Source of the DNA: Thalassococcus sp. S3
GTDB taxonomy: Bacteria; Pseudomonadota; Alphaproteobacteria; Rhodobacterales; Rhodobacteraceae
Assembly (NCBI RefSeq): GCF_004216475.1
Contig: NZ_CP022303.1
Coordinates: forward strand, 1,054,001-1,118,000
Length of the DNA: 64,000 bases
Direction of reading: 5' to 3'
In this document: piece after piece, positions 39,993 through 57,823 of the stretch
How the letters are laid out: each line of letters starts with the position of its first letter
How positions within the stretch are numbered: position 1 is the first letter of the stretch
Translations under genes and position numbers: made by a program
Notes under the pieces: generated by a model
The model's input: the letters and a program-made list of their open reading frames with translations, nothing else
Told to the model about the DNA's origin: nothing
Databases searched by the model: none

Positions 39993-40163
39993 ATGGTCGT
40001 TTTCGCCTTGTAAACAATTTCTTGGTCAGCTTCCGCCTGTTTCCATTTTATCTCAAATTCCCCAAAAAATTTGCCATTTGGTAAAAACGGTCTTGCTCCC
40101 AAAGCTGTTCGTCTGGAAACTGCGTCAATTGGGTGCGCCCTTGTCAGGGTCGTAAAAAGGTGT

Positions 40164-42521: not shown

Positions 42522-42551
42522 ACGCGCCCACCCGGCGCAATGGAGTTTGGC

Positions 42552-45500
42552 ATGGCGACAAGATCGACATTTGCGTTTCTGGTAAGCATCGCGCTGGCGG
42601 GATTGCCGCTTCAGGCGGTGGCCCAGTCCAACGCTCCGACCGAGGGGCTTCTTGTCGTCTACGGCTCCGCCGCGCCCAGCCGCGAAGGCGACGTCGACAG
42701 GCGCGAGCAGATCTTCTTTAGCGTGCCCGCCGAGATGTCGGAGCGTCTGTTCGTCCGGATTTTTGACCCCGAAGTGTCCGGCAGTTCGGATTTCACCTAT
42801 GGCGGCACGGGCAACGCCAACACGACATTCCGCCTTTTTGGCGGTGAGGGAGCCTTTTCGCAGGCAGACCGACCCAGCCAGGTCGAAGACGGCGCACGGG
42901 CGCCACGCGTGAACCGCGATCCTGTCACCGGACCCGGAGAGATGCTTCGCGAAGAGGTCTATACCAATGATCGGGCGACAGATGGCAGGTGGGTCACCCT
43001 GTCAACGCTACGGGCACGCCAGGGCGAAATCATAGATGGTCGCGCCTATTTCCGGATCGACGTGCAGGGGACGGGTGGTGACGATGGAAACGGCTTTTCC
43101 GTCGGCGTCAGTCTGGCCCGCGACCGGGATCGCCCGCCCGAAGGTCTTGCGATGTTTGCCTACCAGCCCACGATCCGGTGGCTGAAAGATCGCCCGCCGA
43201 CACGGGTGCGCTTTGACGGCTCAGTCGGCGGGCCATTCACGGTGCAGAGTTTCGATGCCGCCAACGGAACGCTTTCGGTGGTTACCGATTTCGCCGATCT
43301 GCCCGTCCGCGCATCTGGTCAGGACTTCTGGAGCATCGATACGGTCGAGACATCGGAAACCAATCTCGCGCTGAGCCTGTCGGGTGGATTTGAGACGCCG
43401 AACGACGTGACAGTCTCGGTCTTCGATGGCAGTGGCGCGCCTGTTCCCTTGTCGATGCCACCTGCCAAGGCGCCCGATCCCGCACGCCCGACCGCCCTCG
43501 CGACAGGCCGTCCGCTGGCCGATTGCCGTGCGGTGGCATTTGACGCCAGTGGATCCACGGGGCGGGCGCCGCTGTCCTACCTTTGGGATTTCGGGGATGG
43601 GAAAAGCGCGACAATTCCGGTCATCGCTCATCGTTATGATGAGCCGGGCCGCTACGTCGCCGAATTGCAGGTCACGGAGGCGGGGACAAGACCTGGACGC
43701 GGCCAGGCCGTGTCCGTGCCGGTTCACGTGCGCTCCGCCCCGGTGTCGGTCCCGGGTGATCGGATCGTGGTTGCGCCGGGCGACGCGGTGATCTTCGACG
43801 GCACCGGGTCCGTTGCGTCGGACAGCCCGATCACCCGTTATCTCTGGACCTTCGGGGACGGTAACAGTGCCGAAGGGCCCACGGCAGAGACCCGCTATGA
43901 CCAGCCCGGCTCTTATCGCGCGGTTCTGAGGGTGGAGGATGACAGCGATCATCCTTGCAATTTCGGTGTGGAAACACGTGAAGTCGTGGTCAATTCCCAA
44001 CCCGTCGCCGAAGCGGGGACCGATCAGATTACCGTCGTTGGCCAGCCGGTTATCCTTGCCGGCGGTGCGAGCTATGATGTGGACGGCAGCATTGCCGACT
44101 ACCGTTGGGATATGGGGGACGGCACCGCGCTTCAGGGCGACAGCGTGACCCATGCTTTCACTGCGCCCGGCACATACGAAGTCCGCTTGACCGTGCGGGA
44201 CGACAGCGGCGTCAGCAATGACCTGGCCGATGATACCATGCTCGTCGTGGTCAATGCGCCGCCTGAACCGGTCATTGGGCTGCCCTCGCGACCCGTCTCG
44301 GTCTCCGAAGCCACGCAACTTGATGCGAGTGCTTCGAGCGACGCCGATGGCGAGATCCTGACCTATATGTGGGATTTCGGCGATGGGGCCACCGGAGAGG
44401 GAGAGACGGTCAGCTATGCCTGGACGCGTCCGGGTCTCTTCGATGTCACGCTCACGGTGACTGATGACAGCGGAACCGCCTCGGCCACGCAACAGACCAC
44501 TTTGCAAGTCGTCGTGGACGCGGCCCCCGTTTCGGATGCGGGGCCGGATCAGTTCGTAACCGCAAGCGACGTGATATTCGACGGCGGCGGATCGACCGAC
44601 ACCGACGGGCAGATCACCGCCTGGGAGTGGGATTTCGGGGATGGCGCGACTGCATCCGGCAAAACCGTCAGCCATGCCTATGCCCGTCCGGGGATTTATG
44701 AGGTCGCGCTTTTGGTTCGCGATGACAGCGGCGCCCCTCTCAACCAGGACCGGGACACGATGCAGGTGACGGTGAATTCCGTTCCAATCGCCGATGCCGG
44801 GCCGCCACAGACCGTGGCACCGGGTGAGACATTCGTTGTGAATGGCCGTGCCTCCGTCGACCCCGATGGCGCCATTGCCGAATATGTCTGGGATTTTCCG
44901 GATGGCAGCACCGCGCGCGGGCAACGGGCCTCCTTCACGTTAAACGAGCCGGGCCTGCACCGGATCGGTTTGACCGTTTATGATGACTTTCGCGGTGGCG
45001 CTGCCAGCGATCAATCCGAAGTTCTTGTCACCGTGAACGCGCCGCCTGTGGCCGTCGCGGGGGCGGATTTGCTCATCGCGCCGGGTGAAAGTGTGCTTTT
45101 TGATGCCGGTCACTCCTTTGATCCGGACGGTGAACTCTCCAGCTATCGTTGGGAATTCGACGATCTGGGCGCCCCTCTGGACAGCGCGGCAGTCGAACGC
45201 GCCTACGAGACGCCCGGTGTCTGGTCGGCGCAATTGGTGGTCACGGACGACAGCGGTGTGCTGAACGCCACGGCAACCGACACCAAGACGATCCGGGTGA
45301 ACCATCCTCCGGTAGCTGAGGCAGGTGCGCCGATCGAAACGGAGGTTCTTTTCGTAACCCTGGATGCGTCGGGGTCGAGCGACGCCGATGGCGACGCCTT
45401 GATCTATCGCTGGGATTTCGGTGACGGCTCGCCCCCGGCATTCGGGGAGGTCGTTGACCATGCCTATCCACGTTCAGGTGTCTTTCCGGTGACGCTTCGC

Positions 45501-47402
45501 GTTGATGACGGCACGGGCCTGTCCAATGCCACGGCGATTGATGCCACGACCGTCACCATTAAGGCGCGTCCGGTCGCCGATGCCGGCGGCAATCGCGATG
45601 TCTGCTCGGGGGAGCCGATCCTTTTTGACGCCTCCGGAAGCCTCGATCCCGACGGCGGCTTGCTGCTTTACTCCTGGGATTTCGGCGATGGCAGCGGGTC
45701 CGACCTGATCAATCCGACCAAGACCTATGAAGAGCCGGGGGTCTATCCCGTCACGCTCAGGATCCAGAACGAGACGGGCACCTCTTGGGGCAGCGATATC
45801 GACCGGATCGCCGCACTGGTGCGGGAAGGTCCCCTGGCCAATGCCGGGAAGGACATGACGGTCTGCACCAACCAGCCTGTGCGCTTTGACGGGTCGGGAT
45901 CGACCGATGCCGACGGCGCCGTCAACGCGTTCTCCTGGACCTTTGGCGACGGCGGAACCGCAAGCGGTGAGCGCCCGGAATACCTTTTCAAGGCGCCGGG
46001 CAATTATGCCGTGACCCTCACGATTACCGGGGAGGCCATGGGCGCTTGCAGCCCGCTCGATACCGATGTCGTGAATGTCGAAGTGGTTGCGGCACCCGAA
46101 TTGCAGATCCGCGGTGCGGAACGGGCAGCAGCGGGCCTGCCTGCGGATTTCAAGGCTCAGTTAAGTGATCTGGGGGGAGCGACGCCGATTGGCTTTGACT
46201 GGACGTTCTCGGACGGTGCAACCGCGACGGGCGATGACGTGCGCCATACGTTCGCAGAACCGGGCGAACACTTTATAGCGGTCACGGTGCAACTGGCCGG
46301 CGGCAATCCCGGGTGTAGTACGATTGAGGTCAGGCGAAAGGTGATCGTGAACGAGGCGCCTCAGCCGGTCATCGAAGCCCCGGACCGTGTGGCCACCGGC
46401 GACGCGATCATATTTGATGCGGCGTCCTCATTCGACGCAGACGGGGCGATCACCGGTTTTGTCTGGGCTTTCGGCGATGGTACAACCGCCCAAGGCATCC
46501 GCGCCGCGCATCGCTTTGCAGAGCCGGGCGATCACACCGTCACCCTTTCTGTGACCGACGATGCGGGTGTCGGCAACAGCACGGTGCTGGCCAGCAAGAC
46601 GGTCATGGTCAATCCCGCGCCCCGCGCAGGGCTGAAAGCACCGCCGCCGGTTTGTCCGGCGGTCGATGTGCCCTGGTCTATCGAGGCATCGGAGGGCACC
46701 GCCGTGAGCTGGCTTTTCGAAGAGAGCCGGACGGCGGAAGGCCCCTCGGTCAGCCATCGGTTTGCCCAGTCCGGTCTCTTTCCTGTCCGGGCCACGCTGG
46801 ATGACGGGACGGGACTGCCCAATGCGCGTCGAAGCGAGGAGGTTTACGTCCGTGTGAACTCGGCCCCGACGGCGCTGGCCGGCCCCGACCGCGTCGTTTG
46901 TCCCGGAGATACCGTGACCTTCGATGCCGGGCGATCCGGCGATTTGGACGGACAGATCGTTGAGTGGCTTTGGGAGTTCAGCGATGGCGTCACCCTGAGC
47001 GGGGAGCAGGTCGAGCGCGCCTTTGAGCAAAGCGGGCCCATCGATGTGCGCCTGACAGTCCGTGATGACAGTGGATCGGCCTGCAGCATCGGCACCGATA
47101 CGGCTGCCTTGCTGGTGAATTCCACGCCGCTGGTTGATGCCGGGCCGGATCTGACCGTGCCCGTTGGTGCCGCCCATGATGTTGCCCGCTTCGATGCGGG
47201 GGCCGCACGGGATGTGGATGGTCAGGGCCTTCGCCTGAGCTGGGATTTCGGTGACGGTGCCGAAGCATCGGGTGCCGTGGCGCGACACAGTTATAGCACC
47301 CCGGGCACTTACACTGTAACGGTCATGGCGCAGGACACGACGGGGCTTGCCTGTGGCGTGGCGACCGACACTGCCACTGTCCAGGCCCTGCCACGGCAAT
47401 AG
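42552..47402 (+). CDS. Secreted giant protein with about 15 PKD repeats
   Basis: 1616-residue exported protein. A signal peptide (FAFLVSIALAGLPLQAVA) is followed by a unique beta-rich N-terminal domain (about 25-320) containing VYGSAAPSREGDVDRREQIFF and a YGGTGNANTTFRLFGG segment, then about 15 PKD-type Ig folds to the C-terminus. There is no C-terminal anchor, sorting signal or RTX repeat. PKD repeats mediate extracellular binding to proteins or polysaccharides. The ATG at 42552 is preceded by GGAG 7 bp upstream and begins the signal, so the ATG at 42540 is rejected. It lies between the LysM/FecR gene and the adenylate cyclase gene on the same strand. Confidence 0.9.
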   Translation: MATRSTFAFLVSIALAGLPLQAVAQSNAPTEGLLVVYGSAAPSREGDVDRREQIFFSVPAEMSERLFVRIFDPEVSGSSDFTYGGTGNANTTFRLFGGEGAFSQADRPSQVEDGARAPRVNRDPVTGPGEMLREEVYTNDRATDGRWVTLSTLRARQGEIIDGRAYFRIDVQGTGGDDGNGFSVGVSLARDRDRPPEGLAMFAYQPTIRWLKDRPPTRVRFDGSVGGPFTVQSFDAANGTLSVVTDFADLPVRASGQDFWSIDTVETSETNLALSLSGGFETPNDVTVSVFDGSGAPVPLSMPPAKAPDPARPTALATGRPLADCRAVAFDASGSTGRAPLSYLWDFGDGKSATIPVIAHRYDEPGRYVAELQVTEAGTRPGRGQAVSVPVHVRSAPVSVPGDRIVVAPGDAVIFDGTGSVASDSPITRYLWTFGDGNSAEGPTAETRYDQPGSYRAVLRVEDDSDHPCNFGVETREVVVNSQPVAEAGTDQITVVGQPVILAGGASYDVDGSIADYRWDMGDGTALQGDSVTHAFTAPGTYEVRLTVRDDSGVSNDLADDTMLVVVNAPPEPVIGLPSRPVSVSEATQLDASASSDADGEILTYMWDFGDGATGEGETVSYAWTRPGLFDVTLTVTDDSGTASATQQTTLQVVVDAAPVSDAGPDQFVTASDVIFDGGGSTDTDGQITAWEWDFGDGATASGKTVSHAYARPGIYEVALLVRDDSGAPLNQDRDTMQVTVNSVPIADAGPPQTVAPGETFVVNGRASVDPDGAIAEYVWDFPDGSTARGQRASFTLNEPGLHRIGLTVYDDFRGGAASDQSEVLVTVNAPPVAVAGADLLIAPGESVLFDAGHSFDPDGELSSYRWEFDDLGAPLDSAAVERAYETPGVWSAQLVVTDDSGVLNATATDTKTIRVNHPPVAEAGAPIETEVLFVTLDASGSSDADGDALIYRWDFGDGSPPAFGEVVDHAYPRSGVFPVTLRVDDGTGLSNATAIDATTVTIKARPVADAGGNRDVCSGEPILFDASGSLDPDGGLLLYSWDFGDGSGSDLINPTKTYEEPGVYPVTLRIQNETGTSWGSDIDRIAALVREGPLANAGKDMTVCTNQPVRFDGSGSTDADGAVNAFSWTFGDGGTASGERPEYLFKAPGNYAVTLTITGEAMGACSPLDTDVVNVEVVAAPELQIRGAERAAAGLPADFKAQLSDLGGATPIGFDWTFSDGATATGDDVRHTFAEPGEHFIAVTVQLAGGNPGCSTIEVRRKVIVNEAPQPVIEAPDRVATGDAIIFDAASSFDADGAITGFVWAFGDGTTAQGIRAAHRFAEPGDHTVTLSVTDDAGVGNSTVLASKTVMVNPAPRAGLKAPPPVCPAVDVPWSIEASEGTAVSWLFEESRTAEGPSVSHRFAQSGLFPVRATLDDGTGLPNARRSEEVYVRVNSAPTALAGPDRVVCPGDTVTFDAGRSGDLDGQIVEWLWEFSDGVTLSGEQVERAFEQSGPIDVRLTVRDDSGSACSIGTDTAALLVNSTPLVDAGPDLTVPVGAAHDVARFDAGAARDVDGQGLRLSWDFGDGAEASGAVARHSYSTPGTYTVTVMAQDTTGLACGVATDTATVQALPRQ
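43515..47390 (+). repeat. Tandem array of about 15 PKD-domain repeats (coding)
   Basis: Each unit is 80-95 codons with the core pattern FDASGSxDxDG ... YxWDFGDG ... HxYxxPGxYxVxLxVxDDS, then a linker of the VNxxPVAxAGxD type. I count 15 units. Units 3-12, 14 and 15 are well conserved. Unit 7 has WEFDDLG, and unit 13 lacks the acidic FGDG turn (WLFEESRTAEG). The repeats are diverged at DNA level, so they are old and not a recent slippage expansion. Confidence 0.8.
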
Positions 47403-47413
47403 TCTGTGCAGGC

Positions 47414-47436
47414 CCGCGGCGGAGAGGCCGCCGCGG
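47414..47436. promoter_or_regulatory. 9-bp GC-rich hairpin between the PKD and cyclase genes
   Basis: CCGCGGCGG at 47414-47422 pairs with CCGCCGCGG at 47428-47436 around an AGAGG loop, 12 bp after the PKD stop. No T-run follows, so it may be a processing or partial attenuation element separating the giant gene from the cyclase gene at 47473. Confidence 0.5.
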
Positions 47437-47472
47437 CGCGTAACATAAGGGTGAGAAGCAAGGTTTTGCTCA

Positions 47473-49203
47473 ATGCGGTTTCCTTTGCGTCTGAAATTCT
47501 TCCTGTTCGCAACGCTGATCGCTGTTGCGCCCCTTGCCTTGGTCGGCCAGAACCTGACCACGCTGACCCGGGACGAATTGAAATCGGCGGCTAACGAAGA
47601 CCTCACGACCGTTGCCGCGCAACTGAGAACCGAATTCGATAGCACATTTCAGGGCCGCTGGCTGTCGCCGCTGATGGTGATCCGCAACGGCGTTGACAGC
47701 GATGAGCTGGGCGTCCCGCAAAAGGTCTCTCTGCTGACGCTCGGTCTGCAGGAGTTGCCTCATATCGTGGCGTTGCAATTGACCGTTGACGGCTCATCCC
47801 TGCCGATCCTGGCGACGGATGAGGCGTTTGCCGACCGTCTGGTCGCGGCGGGGCTGGATCCGGTCGACGCGCTTACCACGTCCAGCCAGTTGATCCGGAG
47901 TATCGAAAGCACGGGACAGTACGGGCGTCCCCTGGTGTCCCAATTGCCGGAAACCGGCGATTGGATGGCAACCCTTGCACTTCCGCTCAAAACCCAGATC
48001 GCGGGGCGGCAGGTGACCCTTTCGGCCAAGATCGAGCTTTCGTCGCTCTGGCGTCTGGTGGAGACCCACCCGTTTCGTCAGCGCGGCGAGATCACGGTGA
48101 TCGACCATGCCGGGCGGACGGTTCTGGGTCCAGATATCGATTTGCTGACCGACCGCTCGATTGTGCAATCTGCATTGCCTCTGATCGTCGCAGGTGCGCG
48201 TGCGGATGCTCTGGAAAACTACACGCGTCCCGATGGCACGGCGATGCTGGGCGCCTATGCCTTTCCGGATTGGTTCCAATGGGCCGTGGTGACAGAGCTT
48301 TCTGAAGACAAAGCCTATGCCGTAGTCAACGCCATCACCCGCCAGATCCTGCTGGTCGGTCTGATCGGCTTTGCGGTGGCCAGCGCTGTCGCTTTGATCT
48401 TCGCACGCCAGTTGACGGGGCCAATCCTGAAAATCGGGCAGGTGGCCCAGCGTGTCGGCGACGGCGACTTTGCCGCGCGGGTCGAGAATGTGCGCACAAG
48501 AGACGAGATCGGAGATCTCGCCACCCGGATCAACGAGATGATCGCCCATCTGGGGGAACGCTTGGAACTTATGAAATTCGTTTCGCGTGGGACGGTTTCG
48601 GCGATCCAGCAAGCAGATGAGGAGGGCATGTCGCGGGGCGGCGAGCGGCGCAGGGTCTCGGTCCTTTTCACCGACATCCGGGGATATACCGAATTCTCGG
48701 AACGTGTTCCGCCCGAAGTCGTGATCGAGGCATTGAACCATTACTTCGATGCGCAGACAGATATCGTGGAGCGCCACGGCGGCGATGTGGACAAGTTTAT
48801 CGGCGACGCACTTGTGGCCGTCTTCGAAGGCGCCGACATGGAACAGCGCGCGGCCTCCTGTGCGGTCGAGATTACCGAAGCCATGATGAAGCTACTCGAT
48901 GAATTCCCAGACTACGATCTGCATGTGGGCATCGGGGTGGCATCGGGCGAGGTGGTCATGGGCGCCATGGGCGCGCGTGAACGCATGGACTTTACCGTGC
49001 TGGGATCAACCGTGAACCGTGCGGCGCGCCTGTGCAGCAAGGCGGATGCCGATCAGGTGCTGGTCGATGCCCCGACACGTGACGCCAGCATTGGCCATTC
49101 AGAGATCTATTTTGAGACGCTCGACCCGATCCCTCTCAAAGGCTATGCCGATCCTGTCCCGGCCTTTGCCGCCGTCCGCCCAGCCGTACCGATGTCAGCC
49201 TAG
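47473..49203 (+). CDS. Membrane class III adenylate cyclase with periplasmic sensor and HAMP
   Basis: 576-residue cyclase. Helix 1 is at residues 8-25; a periplasmic Cache-like sensor spans about 30-285; helix 2 is near 290-311 (LVGLIGFAVASAVALIFA); HAMP is about 312-365; the cyclase homology domain is about 385-565. Metal-binding aspartates are in VLFTDIRGYTEF (near 398) and FIGDALVAVFEG. The lysine of VDKFIGD and the DFT of MDFTVLGSTVNRAARL are the adenine-specifying pair, and the Asn/Arg in VNRAAR stabilise the transition state. All catalytic positions are therefore present, and cAMP is the predicted product. It lies 70 bp after the PKD gene and close to an ABC-like protein bearing a cyclic-nucleotide-binding domain. 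Confidence 0.93.
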   Translation: MRFPLRLKFFLFATLIAVAPLALVGQNLTTLTRDELKSAANEDLTTVAAQLRTEFDSTFQGRWLSPLMVIRNGVDSDELGVPQKVSLLTLGLQELPHIVALQLTVDGSSLPILATDEAFADRLVAAGLDPVDALTTSSQLIRSIESTGQYGRPLVSQLPETGDWMATLALPLKTQIAGRQVTLSAKIELSSLWRLVETHPFRQRGEITVIDHAGRTVLGPDIDLLTDRSIVQSALPLIVAGARADALENYTRPDGTAMLGAYAFPDWFQWAVVTELSEDKAYAVVNAITRQILLVGLIGFAVASAVALIFARQLTGPILKIGQVAQRVGDGDFAARVENVRTRDEIGDLATRINEMIAHLGERLELMKFVSRGTVSAIQQADEEGMSRGGERRRVSVLFTDIRGYTEFSERVPPEVVIEALNHYFDAQTDIVERHGGDVDKFIGDALVAVFEGADMEQRAASCAVEITEAMMKLLDEFPDYDLHVGIGVASGEVVMGAMGARERMDFTVLGSTVNRAARLCSKADADQVLVDAPTRDASIGHSEIYFETLDPIPLKGYADPVPAFAAVRPAVPMSA

Positions 49204-49586
49204 GGCCACTCCACCCATGCCCAAACCATGGCAATATAGGTCAGTTGATGAAGCGCCTGGTCAAATCCGGCCGCGCGCCAGAAACCGGCCTGGGCGGGGG
49301 TGTAGGCTTTGGCATCCGAATAGCTGGCCTTGCCCCAGTCTATGTGGAAATGCACGATCCACTCCGCCACGATCAGGAAAAGCAGAAGGGGCAGTGAGGT
49401 GCCCACGATCACCAGGGCAAGGGCCGACCCGACCGCGTGAACGCCAGCATGCTGCGCCCGCCCCATATGAAAATAGGTGGCACGCCCCGCAAGCATCTTG
49501 GGCGTTTGTAGAAAGTAGTCTGCGAACATGTGCTTGAACTGCAATAGGCACAGCAGGATCAGAACTGCTTTGATCGCGTCGGTCAC
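49200..49586 (-). CDS. DUF3307-family small membrane protein
   Basis: 128-residue protein with about three hydrophobic segments and the family features LQFKHMFADYFLQT near the N-terminus and WIVHFHIDWGK in the middle. DUF3307 proteins have no established biochemical role. The GTG at 49586 has an AAGGAGA ribosome site. Its stop overlaps the convergent cyclase gene by 4 bp, so the two 3' ends are locked together. The 267 bp upstream of its start (49587-49853) also contain the leader of the ABC-like gene. Confidence 0.8.
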   Translation of the reverse strand: MTDAIKAVLILLCLLQFKHMFADYFLQTPKMLAGRATYFHMGRAQHAGVHAVGSALALVIVGTSLPLLLFLIVAEWIVHFHIDWGKASYSDAKAYTPAQAGFWRAAGFDQALHQLTYIAMVWAWVEWP

Positions 49587-49853
49587 ACGCCGTCTCCTTT
49601 CCGGTCATCGGCACCTGGCTTTGGCCGTGCCAATGGCTCCGTCTTCTTCACGGCGCACATCCCCGCAACAGATATTCTGTCAATTCCTTACGATTGCAAG
49701 TGTTAAGCAGCGCTTGAGTTTTGCGTTTTTTGCTAACCTGCGCTATCCAAAGGCGGTTTCCGCGATGTTTAAGAACCAGATCGGACCAAGACCATAGAAC
49801 GCACGCTGTTTTCGTTCATCTGGAAATACTCCAAGCGCGATCAACTGATCCTG

Positions 49854-52793
49854 TTGCTCGTTACATCGCTCCTGTTTCCGCTGCTCTATCTCACGCTGGA
49901 ACTGCCAAAGCGTATCATCAACGACGCGATCGACGCCCCCGAGACCCCGATCCGGGTTTACGGGATGGAATTCGAGCAGGTCCAATTCCTTGCGATCCTA
50001 TGCGGTGGCTTTCTGATTGCCGTGCTGGCCCACGGTCTGCTGAAAATGCGGATCAACACGATGAAGGGCGTGCTGGCCGAGCGGTTGCTGCGTCGCTTTC
50101 GGTACACGCTGATCGCCCGCATCCTGCGGTTCCCGCAGCCCTATTTCGAACGGACCAGTCAGGGCGAGTTGGTGTCGATGGTCACGTCAGAGGCGGAGCC
50201 GATGGGCGGTCTTATGGGCGATGCGATTGCCCAGCCGGTCTTGCAGGCCGGTCAGATGCTGACCATCCTGACCTTCCTGTTCCTGCAAAGCTTTTGGTTC
50301 GGTCTTGCAGCCTGCGCGCTGATCCCGCTGCAAGCCTGGCTGATCCCCAAGCTTCAGCGCCAAATCAACCTTCTCAATAAAAAGCGGGTGATCCAGGTGC
50401 GCGGGCTGGCAGCCGAGATCGGCGAAAGTGCGGCCGGCGCGGCGGCTTTGCGCACCAATGGCGGTTGGCGTTATCGGCTGGCGATGATCACGGACCGGCT
50501 GGGACATCTGTTCGAGATCCGGTTCGAGATCTACCAGAAAAAGTTCTTTATGAAGTTTCTCAACAACTTCATCACCCAACTGACGCCTTTCTTTTTCTTT
50601 TCGGTGGGCGGGTATCTTGTCATCCAGGGCAGCGTCACTTTGGGGGCACTGGTCGCCGCTCTGGCCGCTTACAAGGATCTCTCCAGCCCCTGGAAGGAGC
50701 TTCTGGCCTATTACAACCAGGTCCAGGACATGTCCCTACGCTGGGAGATCATCATCGAGCGGTTTGCCCCCGACGGCATGGTCGATGAGGCGTTGTTCAA
50801 GGGGGTGGAGGAGGACGCGCCGCGCCTGAACGGAGATATCGTTCTCGACGGGGTGACGGTGCGGGACGCGGACGGCAATGCGGTTCTGGAAGACATCAAT
50901 GTGACCCTGCCGAAACAGACGGTCGTCGGGATAGCAGCGCCCAGCGAAGAGGACCGCCGCGCCATGGCGGAGGTTTTGACGCGCGAAGTCACGCCGTCCT
51001 CTGGGAAGGTCTTGGTCGCCGGACACGAGATGTCAGGCTTGCATCAATCCGTGATCGCCGCGCGGATTGGCCATGCAACGGGCCGTCCGATCCTGTTTCA
51101 GGGCACCTTTGCCGACAATATGATGATGCCGCTGAAGACGGGGCCGCGTCCGGACAGTGTCGATCCGGCAAGCATCGTCGAAGCCGAGCGCGCGGGAAAC
51201 AGCATCGATGCATTGCAGGCGGAGTGGCTTGATCCTGCGCGGGCCGGGGCGGCCGATGTCGCAGAGCTGCGGGCTTGGTGGATTTCGCTTCTGGACGGGA
51301 TTGGCACAGGCACCGCGCTCTTTCGTCGTGGTCTTGATCAGCGGTTCGACCCGAAGGCCCATCCAGAATTGGCCGAACACCTTGTGGCCCTGCGCGGCAA
51401 GGTGAAGGACGCGGTGGCCGCCGCTGGGCTCTCCCGGCACGTCTACCGGTTTGAAGATGACCGCTACAATCCCGCCCTTCCGGTCGCGGACAACCTGATC
51501 TTTGCCACGCCGCTGCGCCCGATCACCGAGGAGGTCCTCGCGAACGAAACCGAATTCATGGACTTTCTGCGCGCGCTAGAGCTTGATGAAGACCTGCTGG
51601 GTCTCACGCGCGAAGTGGTCGAGCTGCTGCGTCAGATCTTCGGTCTTGACGGGACCGATCATCCGCTGTTCCGCAAGCTGGGTCTGGAGGTGCAAACCTA
51701 TGAACGCGCGGTTGAGCTGCTCGGCAAAGGCAATCCGAAGGGGGCCTCCGACAAGGAGCTTGCCCTTCTGATGACCATTCCCTTTCGCATCTCAGCCGAA
51801 CAGATCGGCCCGGCTTTCCCCGAGGAGATGAAGACACGGTTGCTGGAACTGAGGGCCGCGCATTCTGCGGAGCTGAGAGAGGCGCTGGCCGAGGTCTACA
51901 CGCCCCTGGAACCGGATCTTTTCGTGCCGGGTCTCACGGTTCTGGAGAACGCCCTTTTTGGAAAGATATCGGATGCCGCCGGCGCCAAGGCCGATGAGTT
52001 GCGCAAGATCGTTGCCGATATTCTGGTGGAAGAGGGACTTAAGTCGCTCGTCATTCAACTGATCTATGACATGCCGATTGCCCTGGGGGGCGCAAATCTG
52101 CCTGCTCTTTTCGCAGAACCGCTTTCCTTTTGCCGGGCCACGATCAAACGACCCGATATCCTGATCCTCGATGGCGCCCTGGTCCGGTTTGAGCCGGATG
52201 TCGAGGGGTCGGTGCATGAAAATCTGCGGCGACTGCTGCCAGAGACGACGCTGATCTATCTTGCGAGCGGGTTTGAGGATCCCGAAGGCTTTGACACATA
52301 TATCGAGATCCAACAGGGGCGGATCATCCGCGACGAGCGTGAAGCCGAAGAAACGACAGACAGCGCGGCCAGTGCGGATCTGGCGCGCAAGCTGCGCGCG
52401 CTTGAACAGACACCATTGTTTTCAGGCCTGAACCGCAGGCAGCTTCGGCTACTGGCTTTCGGCGCGCGCTGGTACCGGGCGCCGGCCGGGGAATACGTCT
52501 TTTACAAGGACGACGATCCCTCTGACGGGGCCTATATGGTTTTGGAAGGGGAGGCGGGCCTTTACCTTCCAAAGCCGGACACCGAGGACGAGATGATCGC
52601 CAAGGTGGGCCCAGGCACCCTTGTTGGTGAGCTTGGGTTGATCCGCAACGTACCACGCGCGCTGGACATGAAGGCCGAGACCGATCTGATGTGCCTGCGC
52701 ATTGGCGCCGAAGAGTTCCTGGCCGTCGTCGAGAACGATGCGGCAACCGCCTTCAAGGTGTTGCAGGTGGTTGCCGGCTACGTCTCGAACTAG
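49854..52793 (+). CDS. ABC-exporter-like protein with degenerate ATPase and C-terminal cyclic-nucleotide-binding domain
   Basis: At least 979 residues. An exporter-type membrane domain (about 1-310) includes FPQPYFERTSQGELVSMVTSE, a normal coupling region. The nucleotide-binding domain (about 325-835) is degenerate: the Walker A position reads GIAAPSEEDRRA with no GKS/T, the signature is ALGGANL, and after Walker B aspartate (ILILD, near 770) Gly replaces the catalytic Glu. About 250 extra residues are inserted between the Q-loop (LFQGTFADNM) and the signature. A CRP-type cNMP domain (about 850-975) has an intact phosphate cassette, GELGLIRNVPRA. First standard start in frame is TTG 49854, but the conserved-looking N-terminus (ERTLFSFIWKYSKRDQ) lies upstream in the same frame, open from 49773. 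See findings. Confidence 0.85.
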   Translation: MLVTSLLFPLLYLTLELPKRIINDAIDAPETPIRVYGMEFEQVQFLAILCGGFLIAVLAHGLLKMRINTMKGVLAERLLRRFRYTLIARILRFPQPYFERTSQGELVSMVTSEAEPMGGLMGDAIAQPVLQAGQMLTILTFLFLQSFWFGLAACALIPLQAWLIPKLQRQINLLNKKRVIQVRGLAAEIGESAAGAAALRTNGGWRYRLAMITDRLGHLFEIRFEIYQKKFFMKFLNNFITQLTPFFFFSVGGYLVIQGSVTLGALVAALAAYKDLSSPWKELLAYYNQVQDMSLRWEIIIERFAPDGMVDEALFKGVEEDAPRLNGDIVLDGVTVRDADGNAVLEDINVTLPKQTVVGIAAPSEEDRRAMAEVLTREVTPSSGKVLVAGHEMSGLHQSVIAARIGHATGRPILFQGTFADNMMMPLKTGPRPDSVDPASIVEAERAGNSIDALQAEWLDPARAGAADVAELRAWWISLLDGIGTGTALFRRGLDQRFDPKAHPELAEHLVALRGKVKDAVAAAGLSRHVYRFEDDRYNPALPVADNLIFATPLRPITEEVLANETEFMDFLRALELDEDLLGLTREVVELLRQIFGLDGTDHPLFRKLGLEVQTYERAVELLGKGNPKGASDKELALLMTIPFRISAEQIGPAFPEEMKTRLLELRAAHSAELREALAEVYTPLEPDLFVPGLTVLENALFGKISDAAGAKADELRKIVADILVEEGLKSLVIQLIYDMPIALGGANLPALFAEPLSFCRATIKRPDILILDGALVRFEPDVEGSVHENLRRLLPETTLIYLASGFEDPEGFDTYIEIQQGRIIRDEREAEETTDSAASADLARKLRALEQTPLFSGLNRRQLRLLAFGARWYRAPAGEYVFYKDDDPSDGAYMVLEGEAGLYLPKPDTEDEMIAKVGPGTLVGELGLIRNVPRALDMKAETDLMCLRIGAEEFLAVVENDAATAFKVLQVVAGYVSN

Positions 52794-53468
52794 TCACTTT
52801 CCAAAACGATATCCGGCGCCCCGTACGGTGCTGATCAGATCGCCGTAGGGCGCGATCTTCTTGCGCAGCCGGGCGATATATACATCGACCACATTCGTGA
52901 GCGGATCCTCTTGAGTGCCCCAGACAGCATTCAGGATCCGCTCGCGGCTGTGGACTTTCCCCGGACTTGCCATGAGCATCGAGATCAGCTCGCGCTCTTT
53001 TGCCGACAATGTCACTTCCTGCCCGTCAACGCTCAGCTGCAAGGCGCTGCGATCGTATTTCAGGCCGTCATGGGCCAGCACATCGTCAGAGGCGCCTTTC
53101 GAGAATTCGTGCGCACGGCGACGCAGCGCTTCGATCCGGGCGATCAACTCGTCAAAGTCGAAGGGCTTGGGCAGATAGTCGTCAGCGCCCAGTTTAAGGC
53201 CCGCAACCCGTTCATCCGTCGAATCCAATGCTGTGAGCATCAGGATCGGTGTGTGGTTCTTGCGCGCCCGCATTCTTTGGCAGACATCCTGCCCCGAGAT
53301 ACCGGGGAGCATCAGGTCAAGGACCACGACATCGAAAGGGTAAGCCCCGACCAGTTCCAGACCGGTTTCTCCATCGGGTGCGTGCTCTACCTGCCAGCCT
53401 TCCGCCTTGAGCCCCCGCCGGATGAAATCGGCCACGCGAAGTTCATCTTCTATAAGCAAAATATTCAT
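52794..53468 (-). CDS. OmpR/PhoB-family response regulator
   Basis: 224 residues. The receiver domain is 1-115, with acidic pair ED at 7-8, phospho-acceptor Asp51 in VVLDLMLPG and lysine in YLPKPFDF. A winged-helix effector at about 130-222 contains LSAKERELISMLMASPGKVHSRERIL and VVDVYIARLRKKI. The ATG at 53468 starts the receiver fold exactly; the frame upstream to 53579 is ignored. The partner kinase gene is upstream on the same strand, 141 bp away, with a repeat-rich promoter region between them. Its stop abuts the stop of the ABC-like gene with no gap (52793/52794). Confidence 0.95.
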   Translation of the reverse strand: MNILLIEDELRVADFIRRGLKAEGWQVEHAPDGETGLELVGAYPFDVVVLDLMLPGISGQDVCQRMRARKNHTPILMLTALDSTDERVAGLKLGADDYLPKPFDFDELIARIEALRRRAHEFSKGASDDVLAHDGLKYDRSALQLSVDGQEVTLSAKERELISMLMASPGKVHSRERILNAVWGTQEDPLTNVVDVYIARLRKKIAPYGDLISTVRGAGYRFGK

Positions 53469-53537
53469 CAGTCCGTCCAATTGCAGTTCCGTCTGGGCAG
53501 ACAAAAAGCAATCAGACGGGCCCAAATCTATGCGCTC

Positions 53538-53603
53538 GGGGTTTATATAATTGATGCTATCGTAGGGGTTTAGGCCCATAAACCAGAGTTTAATCCGGGT
53601 TTA
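53538..53603. promoter_or_regulatory. Cluster of five GGGTTTA-type half-sites upstream of the response regulator gene
   Basis: On the plus strand GGGGTTTA occurs at 53538-53545 and 53565-53572, GAGTTTA at 53586-53592 and GGGTTTA at 53597-53603, with an inverted TAAACC at 53579-53584. The last two direct copies are exactly 11 bp apart, the spacing used by OmpR/PhoB dimers. The array lies 70-135 bp upstream of the regulator ATG and includes an AT-rich TATATAAT core. Autoregulation is a reasonable inference. Confidence 0.55.
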
Positions 53604-53609
53604 TGATGC

Positions 53610-55169
53610 TCATGAAACCGCCTGAAGACGGGGGCGGCCCGGCAAATGGATGCTTACGACCAGGCCAGAGCCCTCGGCATCCGCCAGAGCGACCGAGCCG
53701 CCATGCGCTTCGGCGATGGACTTCACAACCGGCAGGCCCAGCCCGGTGCCTTCGGCATAATCCTCCGCCGCGTTGGAGCCGCGGAAGAAACGGCTGAAGG
53801 CCTGCTGCTTTTCCGCATCCGACATGCCGGGCCCGTGGTCCGCGACCGACAGCACAAAGCCGTCTTGCGTGGCGTCAAGCCGCGCCTCGATCTGATCGCC
53901 GCCATAGCGTCGGGCATTCTGCAGCAAAGCGATGATGCATTGTCTGATGCGCATCGGATCGACCCGCGTCGGTGCGTTGTTGATCGTGGTGACAAACGGG
54001 ATCGAGGGCGCAACCATGGAGAGGGTCTCGGTCATCAAGCTGGCCAGATCGACCTCCTGCAGGTCCAGCTTGGCGACACCTGCCTCCCGGCGGGCGATGA
54101 AGAGCAGGTCATCAACCAGTCGATTCGTGTGTTTGGCCGTATCGCGGGCGCGGCGCAGGGCCTCCTGGTATTCTTCTGCTGTCTTCTCGGCCCCTCTCAA
54201 TGCGACCTCCGTCTCACCCTGGATGATGGTCAGCGGCGTCCGCAGCTCGTGGCTGACGTCGGCCATCAGACGGCGCCGGTTGGTTTCGGCCGTCTGGGCA
54301 TCCTCCAGAAGGCGCTCCAGTTCCACGGTGCGGCTGCGCACCGCGTCTTCCAGTTTGGCGTTCTGACTTTCCAGTGAGCGTGTCCGCTCCTCGACCTGGG
54401 CCGCCATATCGTCGAGCACGGTGGCGACCTGGGCGATTTCATCGCGCCCCTTCAGCCCGATCACCTTGTTGAAGTGTCCGGCCGAAAACATCTCGACGCC
54501 GGACATAAGCTGGTGCAGCGGTCTCTGGATGCGCGAGCGGTAGCTCCAAAGCGCAAAGCCGGTAAACGTGATTGCCAGCAAGGCAAAGCTGATCGCCAGA
54601 CGGTTGGCAAATTTCTCGTGTGTCTTGGCCGCGAGCCGGGTTTCCTCGGTCTCTTCCAGCTCCTCGGCCAAGGCCGCTTCGATCAACGACTGGAAATCGC
54701 GGTCGATCTCGTTGTCTAGGATCAGCGACAGACCGGACCAGTTCTGGGCCAGAACCTCCGGCGCGCCTTGCGACGTGATCTGTTTGAATTTGACAATGAG
54801 GCCATTGATCTTGGTTTCAAGCAAGGCCAGCGTTGCCAGCTCGTCGATTTCTTCTTCGCCGACAAGGTCGATCTCCTCGCCGATGATCTGGCGGATTTCG
54901 GTGATGTTGCCACGGATCTCCTGGATCAGGACGGCGCGTTCAAAGGTCCGTCCTTCGCCGCCGATCAAAATCCGGTCGCCATATTGCTTGAAGAGACGGT
55001 AGGTGGCGTTGGCCAGCTTCAGATGTGCCTCATAGCTGGCATGTGCAAGCATGATGCGGTCATTGTAATAAGCGGCGCGATTGGTCGTCCATATCGAGAT
55101 CGCGGTGCCGCCCAGAACGAGGATCAGCATCACAATCGCATAGAGATTAACCAGACTAAGGATGCGCAA
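53610..55169 (-). CDS. Membrane sensor histidine kinase
   Basis: 519 residues. Helix 1 is at about 5-27. A roughly 170-residue periplasmic, helical, acid-rich sensor follows (GGEGRTFERAVLIQEIRGNI and the EELEETEETRLAAK helix), then helix 2 near 192-210 (LAISFALLAITFTGFALWSY), HAMP, and a coiled coil (VEERTRSLESQNAKLEDAVRSR). HisKA has the phospho-acceptor in ADVSHELRTPLT. The HATPase domain has N-box LLQNARRYG, DHGPGMSD and GTGLGLPVV. It would phosphorylate the response regulator at 52794-53468. It is 27 bp after the ABC exporter gene, suggesting one transcript with the exporter. Confidence 0.94.
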   Translation of the reverse strand: MRILSLVNLYAIVMLILVLGGTAISIWTTNRAAYYNDRIMLAHASYEAHLKLANATYRLFKQYGDRILIGGEGRTFERAVLIQEIRGNITEIRQIIGEEIDLVGEEEIDELATLALLETKINGLIVKFKQITSQGAPEVLAQNWSGLSLILDNEIDRDFQSLIEAALAEELEETEETRLAAKTHEKFANRLAISFALLAITFTGFALWSYRSRIQRPLHQLMSGVEMFSAGHFNKVIGLKGRDEIAQVATVLDDMAAQVEERTRSLESQNAKLEDAVRSRTVELERLLEDAQTAETNRRRLMADVSHELRTPLTIIQGETEVALRGAEKTAEEYQEALRRARDTAKHTNRLVDDLLFIARREAGVAKLDLQEVDLASLMTETLSMVAPSIPFVTTINNAPTRVDPMRIRQCIIALLQNARRYGGDQIEARLDATQDGFVLSVADHGPGMSDAEKQQAFSRFFRGSNAAEDYAEGTGLGLPVVKSIAEAHGGSVALADAEGSGLVVSIHLPGRPRLQAVS

Positions 55170-55196
55170 GGCATAGCTCCAATCTTGTTTCGCACG

Positions 55197-56768
55197 TCAA
55201 TCATGGGACAGGATGGCGCGGCGGTCCGCCAATACAAGTGTTCTTGCGTTTGTGAAGCCTGTCATGCGCGGACCTGTGACCAAAACCGTCGCCTTCGTCT
55301 TGGTGCGCAAGCGTTTTAGCAGCAGCGCGCCCTCGGGGTCGGCGCGAAGCTGGGCGTTGTCGACAACGATCAGGTCGGCGCGCGAGAGAATAGCGCGGGC
55401 CAGCGCGATTCGCAGCGCTTCGCCATTCGATATCACCGACGCACCGGACGGCAGGCTGCCATCAATGCCTCCAATCCGTGACAGCAGGCCGCCTAGTCCC
55501 ATCTGTTGCGCGACACGATCGGTCTTGCGGCGGGACGGGCGGGGCGAAAGCCCAAGGGACAAGCTCCGCCGCAAGCTGCCGCGAAGCATCGCGGGACGAT
55601 CCGGCACATAAGCGACCGAGGGCAGCGCCACACGTCCTTCGTCATAAAGAACGTGCCCCTGTTCCGGCGGGCTGAGGCCGGCAACCATCGCGGCCAGGCT
55701 GGATTTGCCGGATCCGTTCGGGCCGGAGACGAACGTGAGCGAGCCGGCCGGCAAGACGGCATTCACGGTCAGCGCCCGCAATTTGGCATTGTCCAGGGTG
55801 ACGGATACCGGCCGACCCTGACGCTCTGACAGGCGCCGGGTGCTGGGTTGCGCCAGCAACTTTCCGCATTTCTCGCGCGCGACGCGCCAGCCGCAATAGC
55901 GATCCCAGACACCTGCAAGTTCCTGCAATGGCAACATCAGGATCCCCAGCATCGCAAGGGCCGCTGCCGCCTCCGCGGCGGCGATGTCGGGCCGGGCCGC
56001 GGCCCACAGGATCGCCACGCCGCCAAGGGCGGCCCCGATCTGGGGGATGGCCCGCAGCAGGCTGCTTCGCGTGACACGGGCGGTGGCCTGCTGGCGCAGC
56101 CTGTCGCCGTTCTCGTCCAGCACTTCGAGTTCCTTGCCCGTGCGTCCGGCCAGATCGAGATCCGGCGCCTGGGCGATCCGCTCCATCATGTTGATGGCGA
56201 TCCGGGCCCGTCGGCTGCGCAGGCGGCGGTGGTAGTGTTCAAGACCGATGGCCAGGCCGAACGCCAGCAAAAGTGAGGCGGCAACCGGCAGGCTGGCGGC
56301 AAGCGCGAGGTACGGGTTCAAGAGGTAAAGCACCAGCGCGGCCCCGGGAAGCACCACCACGGCCGAGACGAGGCGCGTGATCCCCAGGCCAACCCAGCCC
56401 CGCGCCGCCGACAGATCGCCGACGAAGCGCAGAGAGAGTGCGCCGGTGCGCCGCTTGGCCAGATCGGATTCGGACATGCCGGCGATATGGTCATAAAGAC
56501 GGTGTCTGAGCGACTTTGCATAATGTTGGCCAAGCGATTCGGCGCGCGCCCGGGCCAGAACACGAAGAAGCGCAACAGCAACGCCCGCTCCGACCAGGAT
56601 CGCCAGGGTGAGCGGGCGTTGCGATTGAGCCTGATGCAGGGCCGCGAAGGCATCGCGCGTTGCGAAGGCCGCGATCCCCATGGCGATCCCTTGCAGGATG
56701 CCGATGGCGGCGACGAGGGCCACGCTGCGTGCGCGGCCCTCGCTGAGTGGTGCGGGAACGTGGGTCAT
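55197..56768 (-). CDS. ABC exporter half-transporter lacking the catalytic glutamate
   Basis: 523 residues: exporter-type membrane domain (about 15-305, five to six helices) and one nucleotide-binding domain (about 325-520). Walker A is intact (GPNGSGKSS, near 345). The signature is ISNGEALRIALARAI in place of LSGGQ. Walker B reads LIVVDNAQL, so the catalytic Glu is Asn. The switch-His position is VLVTGPRM, with no His. ATP binding is likely but hydrolysis should be impaired in a homodimer. The ATG at 56768 overlaps the upstream gene's TGA by 4 bp. The frame is open upstream to 56912 without support. The linkage with a kinase/regulator pair recalls peptide-sensing or lipid exporters, but substrate is unknown. 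Confidence 0.85.
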   Translation of the reverse strand: MTHVPAPLSEGRARSVALVAAIGILQGIAMGIAAFATRDAFAALHQAQSQRPLTLAILVGAGVAVALLRVLARARAESLGQHYAKSLRHRLYDHIAGMSESDLAKRRTGALSLRFVGDLSAARGWVGLGITRLVSAVVVLPGAALVLYLLNPYLALAASLPVAASLLLAFGLAIGLEHYHRRLRSRRARIAINMMERIAQAPDLDLAGRTGKELEVLDENGDRLRQQATARVTRSSLLRAIPQIGAALGGVAILWAAARPDIAAAEAAAALAMLGILMLPLQELAGVWDRYCGWRVAREKCGKLLAQPSTRRLSERQGRPVSVTLDNAKLRALTVNAVLPAGSLTFVSGPNGSGKSSLAAMVAGLSPPEQGHVLYDEGRVALPSVAYVPDRPAMLRGSLRRSLSLGLSPRPSRRKTDRVAQQMGLGGLLSRIGGIDGSLPSGASVISNGEALRIALARAILSRADLIVVDNAQLRADPEGALLLKRLRTKTKATVLVTGPRMTGFTNARTLVLADRRAILSHD

Positions 56769-57823
56769 GCCGCTGTCTTCTGCAAAAGGCCGGCGCGGCG
56801 CATCAGTGGGGAAACAAGGCTCATCACCTTGACGGGGTCGCACAATTCGGCGCGCGACAGATGCGGCACTCCGGTGGCGCGCATGGCTTCCCGGGTGGCC
56901 AGGGGGGAGCATGTGACCATGCCGGATACGGCCATCGGGCGAACTCCGTAGCTTTGCAGAACCTGAACGCCTCCGACGGATCCCAGGGCATCGGGAGCGG
57001 CGAACATCAATCCATCCATGCGCTTCAGAATGGGGGAGCCTTCGAGAATGGCGGAGGTTTCGCGCTGAAAGACGCCATCGGCGATTTCGACCACCGCGAT
57101 CTCGGCGCCTTGAGCCGCCGCGTTGCCGACAAGGGTTTCAAACCCACGCTCGATCCGCTCCATCGGCATACGGTAAGTGGTGGGCATGCCCGCATCGGTA
57201 AAGTCGGTGACGGGAACACCTGCATCCATGAAGGCATTGAAATCACCAAAGGCACCGGTGCCTGTTGCTTTTATACCCGCCACGTTGAACCCGGCCCGTG
57301 CGAGGCCATGGGCCAGGCTCACCGCGGCGGTGGTCTTGCCTGCATTCATCGAGGCACCGAAGACACCCAGTACCGTGACATCGTCGGGGATCGTCTGGTG
57401 GGGCATGGCATAGCGGGCGACATTCATCACTTCGCCTGCCGCGTCGACCAGAAGACCCAGCGGCTGCACCTGTGTCGGACGGTTCATCCGGCCATGGGCC
57501 GTTTCGACGAGCCCCACAATGCCCCCGCCAGCAATCAGATCAACGCCGTCGGGAGAGAGTTCGGCGCGTCCTTCGAACTGGTCGGGGGCATACCGGTCAC
57601 CCACGCAGGCCACGAACACATCGCCGGGGTAGCTGAGGGAATAGCGCTGGTCCGAAAGCTGGAGTTTCTTGTGCTGACCCAACTGGGTGATGCGGCACAG
57701 GACAAGATCGCCAGCGGTGGCGTAGGTGACGTTCGGGTCGAGCGAGGCCACGTCGTCGCGGTTCACACGACGGGTGGAGAAGGTCCATTTGGCCTGGGCG
57801 GGGATGGCGGTGTTCAGTGTCAT
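56765..57823 (-). CDS. MobB/DUF1611-like P-loop NTPase
   Basis: 352 residues. An N-terminal beta-rich domain (about 1-145) is followed by a P-loop domain with GVFGASMNAGKTTAAVSLAHGL near residue 150 (Walker A GxxxxGKT), a switch-like AGIKATGTGAFGDFNAFMDAG and VVEIADGVFQRET. The pattern resembles the DUF1611/MobB group of ATP/GTPases related to cofactor biosynthesis proteins, but I cannot name a reaction. It is the first gene of a four-gene minus-strand unit (NTPase, ABC exporter, kinase, regulator) and overlaps the exporter by 4 bp. A pair of direct repeats lies about 80-110 bp upstream of its start. Confidence 0.7.
   Translation of the reverse strand: MTLNTAIPAQAKWTFSTRRVNRDDVASLDPNVTYATAGDLVLCRITQLGQHKKLQLSDQRYSLSYPGDVFVACVGDRYAPDQFEGRAELSPDGVDLIAGGGIVGLVETAHGRMNRPTQVQPLGLLVDAAGEVMNVARYAMPHQTIPDDVTVLGVFGASMNAGKTTAAVSLAHGLARAGFNVAGIKATGTGAFGDFNAFMDAGVPVTDFTDAGMPTTYRMPMERIERGFETLVGNAAAQGAEIAVVEIADGVFQRETSAILEGSPILKRMDGLMFAAPDALGSVGGVQVLQSYGVRPMAVSGMVTCSPLATREAMRATGVPHLSRAELCDPVKVMSLVSPLMRRAGLLQKTAA

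Follow-up and report, generated by a model that had tools for sequence, protein, structure and literature searches.

What does an ATP-binding cassette (ABC) exporter do once the only ATPase domain in its chain has lost its motifs? The question is raised by a gene in a 64,000-nucleotide stretch of Thalassococcus sp. S3 (contig NZ_CP022303.1, positions 1,054,001 to 1,118,000 of the forward strand), called here the window, from whose first letter all coordinates are counted. The open reading frame (ORF) 49854-52793 (+) translates into 979 residues with no internal stop and carries an exporter-type transmembrane domain, a degenerate nucleotide-binding domain (NBD) interrupted by an insert, and a C-terminal cyclic nucleotide-binding domain (CNBD). 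From the sequence, and with a probability of about 0.5, we propose that the product is a pseudo-ATPase of the type IV (exporter-fold) ABC superfamily, which would act in the membrane as a device controlled by a nucleotide and independent of ATP, its amount held low by a weak start codon.

Loss of the ATPase motifs and its conservation

The exporter membrane domain described in the original prediction, which was made without database searches, was recovered in a Pfam scan as ABC_membrane (PF00664, 65.3 bits, cut-off 28). The ABC_tran match scored just 14.8 bits, below its cut-off of 25. At E <= 0.1 the scan returned three families, no peptidase among them, and a C39 peptidase domain was not found.

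The place of the Walker A motif (residues 359-370) is occupied by GIAAPSEEDRRA, and the consensus GxxGxGK[ST] reads APSEEDRRA. The signature LSGGQ is replaced by LPALF, and the H-loop histidine is missing. The Walker B stretch DILILDGAL has its aspartate, followed by glycine at the position of the catalytic glutamate. Both the replaced Walker A and the missing glutamate had been predicted, and both extend to the relatives. Among 121 close rows (119 listed homologues of 67-72% identity, some named Ruegeria, Leisingera, Phaeobacter or other Roseobacter-group bacteria, plus the window protein counted twice) the Walker lysine was present in none and arginine stood there in all; the catalytic position was never glutamate (0/121), and the substitute P-loop was exactly GIAAPSEEDRRA in 58.

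A broader table of 80 rows (79 distinct) comprised 33 roseobacter and 47 distant rows. The complete catalytic set of lysine, serine/threonine, aspartate and glutamate was found in 0/80, window included. Lysine was present in 0/33 roseobacter rows, which had arginine in 31, and aspartate together with glutamate in 0/33. The signature serine was P, A or E and the signature glutamine F, L, I, Y or V in all 33. In the distant rows the Ser/Thr position was mostly Asp or Glu (39/47) and rarely Ser or Thr (4/47), while the Walker B aspartate was replaced by asparagine in 34/47 and the catalytic glutamate was kept in 33/47. According to the original prediction, homologues with an intact Walker A would mark this copy as decayed. 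Such GK[ST] homologues do exist (4/47 distant rows), but the form seen in the window is conserved across a whole clade, so this is not simple decay.

Selection was analysed in orthologues of the window gene (type A) and in paralogues (type B); the 99 roseobacter loci comprise 65 of type A and 34 of type B. These loci and the 80-row table are selected or capped samples, not random draws; exact copies account for 3 of the 99 coding matches, and many loci are congeneric. The ratio of nonsynonymous to synonymous change (pN/pS), which is rough because synonymous sites are near saturation, indicated purifying selection on every type A domain (0.25-0.49). It was 0.25 in the membrane domain, 0.27 in the 13 residues of the former P-loop and 0.42-0.49 in the rest of the NBD and the insert (0.42 in the N-terminal part of the NBD). 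Judged from these alignments, the window gene is not a decayed copy, because arginine holds the Walker lysine position in 121/121 rows and the substitute P-loop is constrained about as strongly as the membrane domain. On the same alignments, no ATPase motif other than the Walker B aspartate survives, and newly conserved residues have taken the place of some of them.

The cyclic nucleotide-binding domain

The C-terminal domain matched cNMP_binding (PF00027) at 57.7 bits (cut-off 27.5). The glutamate and arginine of its phosphate-binding cassette (PBC), E926 and R935, were present in 56/56 type A loci of the genome_contigs set; this count took 79 of the 80 loci in the set and excluded L135, a metagenome-assembled genome (MAG) with a stop inside the matched stretch. 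The strict Glu..Arg pattern was also matched in 36/40 distant loci. The predicted CRP-like domain with an intact phosphate cassette was thus confirmed, and from this cassette the CNBD is apparently competent for nucleotide. In the distant loci the CNBD was always fused or next on the same strand (40/40): fused in 4, overlapping the ABC-like gene in 2 and starting 10-125 bp after its stop in 33, the distance at L079 not being measurable.

A conserved ATA/ATC start codon

The conserved N-terminus xERTLFxFIWKYSKRDQ starts 20 codons upstream of the TTG chosen by mechanical ORF calling. The corrected gene starts at ATA 49794 and encodes 999 residues, which suggests that database entries of 973-985 residues are without the true N-terminus. 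Among the 63 type A starts that could be parsed (65 loci), 43 were ATA, 17 ATC and 3 ATG, compared with 27 ATG and 2 ATA (L172 and L184) among 29 in type B (34 loci) and 32 ATG and 5 GTG at the identical offset among 37 distant starts (40 loci, by-eye count); these counts are not independent events, because many loci are congeneric, Ruegeria above all. Codons 2-20 had a pN/pS of 0.15, compared with about 1.0-1.1 upstream (near-copies removed). In 37 of 61 ATA/ATC loci there was no ATG, GTG or TTG between the in-frame upstream stop and the start codon; in the other 24 the start rests on conservation, because one of these codons is present upstream. ATA made up 2.6% of the isoleucine codons elsewhere in these genes (86/3329) versus 45/61 at the start position.

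The upstream bases of the 61 loci were conserved as G at -11 (57), G at -10 (54) and A/G at -9 (59), with no other strong conservation. GG[AG] within -15 to -6 was found in 58/61 loci versus 9/61 and 18/61 in two control stretches. The Shine-Dalgarno duplex energy separated the type A site weakly from shuffles (-5.58 vs. -4.41) and the type B site not at all (-4.82 vs. -4.82); the base-by-base conservation is the stronger evidence.

A conserved AUA/AUC/AUU start with a Shine-Dalgarno site is the pattern of infC, and it is found here. In the genome of the window and 22 related genomes, infC itself starts with ATA in 22/23 and ATC in 1/23. The window gene (49794-49796) and infC of the related genomes (L224-L246) share the ATA (rarely ATC) start, often preceded by C. 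In Staphylococcus aureus, the accessible part of one study (PMC13009471) describes conserved non-canonical starts, including AUA of ccpN, and an AUA start of infC said to permit autoregulation as in E. coli. The likeness to infC and ccpN lies in the conserved AUA start with its Shine-Dalgarno site. The difference is that the window gene is an alphaproteobacterial gene for a membrane protein, in which dependence on initiation factor 3 (IF3) is proposed only.

The insert within the NBD

An insert of about 250 residues had been predicted inside the ATPase domain. The insert is present, but its size is about 300 residues (roughly 437-735). Its invariant columns are kept also in relatives of about 30% identity. 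An hhalign comparison of residues 500-600 with 655-740 gave a probability of 98.6 and an E-value of 5.8e-15; in the controls, which used residues 500-680, E was 0.12 for the reversed second segment, 0.17-0.98 for six other segments and 0.059-0.9 for 20 column shuffles. By this profile comparison the insert contains an internal duplication, at least in part, whose unit centres on a motif resembling the ENI segment found after the Q-loop. Residues 396-436, tried as the first of three copies, matched the second at E 4.3e-4 (probability 14%; a longer cut gave 1.4e-4 and 26%), which suggests a third, weaker copy. Because this match is weak, we claim a duplication rather than a triplication. Whole-model VIA-align and Foldseek searches returned ABC exporters and were uninformative for the insert.

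Family range and relatives without an NBD

At E <= 1e-40 the protein matched 32/149 genomes of the same-family set and 129/385 of the class set. In the phylum-wide set 32/398 matched, of which 31 were the genome of the window, its family or its class and the remaining one was a membrane-domain match only. The genome of the window holds a second copy (C1:262889-265831, 55% identical), also without a P-loop. When the NBD motif columns were left out of the tree (unrooted, no bootstrap), a branch with SH-aLRT 100 set the 33 roseobacter rows apart from the others. Too few independent pairs (1 on starred branches, 2 in all) were available to relate CNBD fusion to loss of the P-loop. HetC apart, no paper on the family or the architecture was found in the open-access literature, which does not show that the family is undescribed.

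Ten membrane-domain-only match sites were picked from the family, class and phylum sets and fetched, L214-L219, L221 and L223 among them. By reading of the sequences, L214, L215, L216 and L218 lie near multicopper-oxidase- and cupredoxin-like genes and L217 has similar neighbours; L223 lies within a glycosyltransferase operon. L222 reaches the contig end and groups with NBD-bearing rows, L220 forms a long, unsure branch and L221 is possibly truncated at its start. The FPxPxF coupling consensus was present in 0/9 NBD-less rows with frames ending inside the contig, eight being shorter at the coupling segment by 4-5 residues and L223 by one. The dead NBD appears to be still coupled, because the roseobacter rows keep this consensus and the nine NBD-less rows do not; it would then still move with the membrane domain. 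The NBD-less forms may be derived or a sister group, either being compatible with the unrooted tree.

Genomic setting

The coordinates of the gene and its neighbours are collected in Table 1. The distant loci harboured glycosyltransferases in 27-31/40 (a divergent set, whose counts are not independent since two GT4-type queries can match the same gene), a histidine phosphatase in 28/40 and a methyltransferase in 21/40; the Pfam names of these neighbours were taken from one locus, L089. A cyclase catalytic domain was matched in 6/40. The DUF3307 gene is a conserved neighbour in type A, where the count includes five loci with under 5 kb upstream; the two type B loci that have it are the Shimia loci L172 and L184.

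In 40071-49203, genes for a FecR/Ig protein, a PKD-repeat protein of 1620 residues and the HAMP-cyclase follow one another on the same strand. The PKD protein and the HAMP-cyclase occur together in the same 14/65 type A loci, 11 of which also have the FecR/Ig protein. On the other side, 52794-57823 (-) holds a two-component pair, a CydD-like ABC half-transporter and a small P-loop-like protein. The type B loci include L119, L105, L109, L111, L118 and L120; the neighbours in L105 resemble dihydroxy-acid dehydratase, a CPBP-type protease, accD and folC (proteins named by reading). An Rfam scan of 46500-53800 gave no match at E <= 1.

Table 1. Features of the window gene and its conserved or minority neighbours
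Feature	Position	Strand	Evidence
Whole corrected gene: transmembrane domain, degenerate NBD with insert, CNBD (999 residues)	49794..52793	+	Translation, Pfam, start-codon comparison, structure model (model covers 49854 onward)
Start codon ATA, true gene start	49794..49796	+	ATA/ATC in 60/63 parsed type A loci; ATG in 27/29 parsed type B; ATG/GTG at same offset in 37/37 parsed distant loci
Shine-Dalgarno core GGA, 9-11 nt ahead of start codon	49783..49785	+	Upstream base conservation in 61 loci
Exporter-type transmembrane domain with coupling segment RFPQPYF..SQGE	49794..50813	+	PF00664 65.3 bits; pN/pS 0.25, most constrained part; coupling segment kept
Degenerate NBD, N-terminal part	50835..51161	+	
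Substitute P-loop GIAAPSEEDRRAM	50928..50966	+	Arg at Lys position in 121/121 close and 31/33 roseobacter rows; pN/pS
Insert within NBD, about 300 residues	51162..52058	+	Mostly high-confidence helical model; invariant columns also in relatives of about 30% identity
Duplicated segment, earlier copy (residues 500-600, ADNLIF motif)	51351..51653	+	hhalign vs. residues 655-740
Duplicated segment, later copy (residues 655-740, LENALF motif)	51816..52073	+	hhalign vs. residues 500-600
Degenerate NBD, C-terminal part; Walker B DILILD at 52155-52172, without catalytic Glu	52059..52343	+	Motif alignment
C-terminal CNBD; PBC GELGLIRNVPRA at 52626-52661	52404..52790	+	PF00027 57.7 bits; E926 and R935 in 56/56 type A loci
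DUF3307 membrane protein, divergent conserved neighbour	49200..49586	-	PF11750 35.9 bits, cut-off 23; 62/65 type A, 2/34 type B
HAMP-class III nucleotide cyclase, weak Cache match, minority neighbour	47473..49203	+	PF00211 80.1 bits; dCache_1 27 bits, cut-off 45

Discussion

The original prediction was of a transporter turned into a cyclic-nucleotide-responsive receptor or scaffold. The ATPase motifs are truly lost, this loss is conserved and the cassette is intact, and a regulatory rather than a pumping role is the best reading of the sequence. Exporters of the type IV fold are dimers, and the window protein is probably a ligand-gated membrane device of the envelope, probably dimeric. Because there is no canonical ATP site, the CNBD would be its natural input. 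Binding of a cyclic or related nucleotide to the CNBD would alter the packing of the two dead NBDs within the dimer, the coupling helices would relay this change to the membrane domain, and the membrane domain would gate a path or a partner in the envelope with no ATP-driven pumping. The conserved AUA/AUC start would keep the protein scarce and tie its translation to IF3, as for infC.

The setting of the distant relatives suggests an envelope-glycan or lipid-linked origin, because in most of them the CNBD gene follows directly and glycosyltransferases lie beside it; with an unrooted tree, we can only infer that this arrangement is the ancestral one. A tentative history, to which we give rather less credence than to the device itself, would be a stepwise erosion of the ATPase (absent in the NBD-less relatives), the conversion of a neighbouring CNBD into a fused controller and, in the clade of the window gene, throttling by IF3 through the AUA/AUC start; the activity of what was once a pump would then depend on both a second messenger and the translation machinery. 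The order of events is likewise inferred, the trees being unrooted.

Several observations weigh against the ATP-independent, nucleotide-controlled device. The arginine of 31/33 roseobacter rows leaves nucleotide binding by the NBD possible, the Walker B aspartate is kept in 27/33, and among the distant rows the Walker lysine is kept in 32/47 (arginine in 13/47). The type B P-loop is under no special constraint (pN/pS 0.49 vs. 0.39 for the surrounding N-terminal part of the NBD), and the PBC glutamate of type B is aspartate in 20/23 genome_contigs loci. The cyclase adjoins the gene in just 14/65 type A and 0/34 type B loci, and the glycosyltransferase queries had 0 matches in 21 roseobacter loci. 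The structure model represents a monomer, starts after the first 20 residues and is weak around residues 110-170 and 271-290. Finally, the accessible text on HetC (PMC10986499) reports that its CNBD bound ppGpp and that cAMP gave no significant protection; such a fused domain may bind ppGpp rather than cAMP, and by this analogy the ligand of the window CNBD may be other than a cyclic nucleotide.

Among the alternatives, it is unlikely that the NBD, through the arginine and what remains of the scaffold, binds ATP or another nucleotide without hydrolysis and serves beside the CNBD as a sensor of nucleotides. The kept arginine and aspartate would allow this, but both P-loop glycines that were checked are replaced in 33/33 roseobacter rows (by A, S, V or T and by D, E or A), as are the signature serine and glutamine.

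We are more doubtful that the protein is half of a heteromeric transporter, in which an unlinked ABC subunit would supply the ATP site that works, on the model of heterodimeric exporters whose other site is degenerate. A review (PMC7756269), in the part available, counts a degenerate site in 21/29 human non-homodimeric ABC transporters, and types A and B could pair, type B being present in 21/25 same-family genomes with type A (by-eye count). Type B is, however, likewise P-loop-dead, including the paralogue of this genome, and in the neighbourhood tables no ABC gene emerged as a conserved partner (the search did not extend to unlinked ones). The nearby half-transporter (55197-56912) had no match (E <= 1e-8, 40% coverage) in the fetched flanks of the 65 type A and 34 type B loci and was rejected as a partner, its linkage not being conserved. 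The predicted second ABC subunit supplying ATP binding thus found no support.

It is improbable, too, that the CNBD-like domain is a nucleotide-free docking site for proteins and the whole protein a structural scaffold. CNBD-like folds can bind other things than nucleotides, and the aspartate of the type B cassette and the rarity of an adjoining cyclase fit this explanation. The invariant glutamate and arginine in type A and the strict pattern in most distant loci argue against it. A decaying pseudogene, to which the loss of several catalytic motifs, the few GK[ST] homologues and the stop in L135 could point, is scarcely credible and was ruled out by the conserved substitute motif, the stop-free open frames of 25 same-family genomes (by-eye count; a contig end truncates one frame) and the pN/pS of every type A domain.

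The proposed ATP-independent device has partial counterparts among known systems. TM287/288, TAP, CFTR and SUR also combine the exporter fold with lost catalytic residues, and in SUR and CFTR this fold serves regulation or gating. These proteins keep one canonical site, unlike the window protein, in which the sole NBD of each chain is dead, as it is in the paralogue. The PCAT1 and TM287-288 structures have neither an NBD insert nor a CNBD, and their Foldseek TM-scores by query length were about 0.2-0.34, low because of the extra parts and the domain arrangement of the window protein. TIGR03896 (cyc_nuc_ocin) is a CNBD protein family tied by name to bacteriocin-type transport, but the window protein scored 25.6 bits against its cut-off of 161.05. 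A further counterpart is HetC of Nostoc, which, in the accessible text (PMC10986499), has an ABC exporter membrane domain and a fused CRP-like domain needed for its function, and thus shows that a fused CNBD can be essential to an ABC exporter. HetC differs in its N-terminal CNBD, its C39 peptidase and an ATPase with an essential catalytic residue (same source); the window protein carries its CNBD at the C-terminus, gave no peptidase match and has lost the ATPase motifs.

ABC exporters often have a degenerate ATP site, but one working site usually remains. The present clade has a single, dead NBD per chain and living relatives that are either less degenerate or NBD-less, and it may show what an ABC membrane domain does without ATP. 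The fused CNBD would give a direct handle on the input, and the conserved AUA/AUC start makes this gene a candidate for control by IF3 beyond infC.

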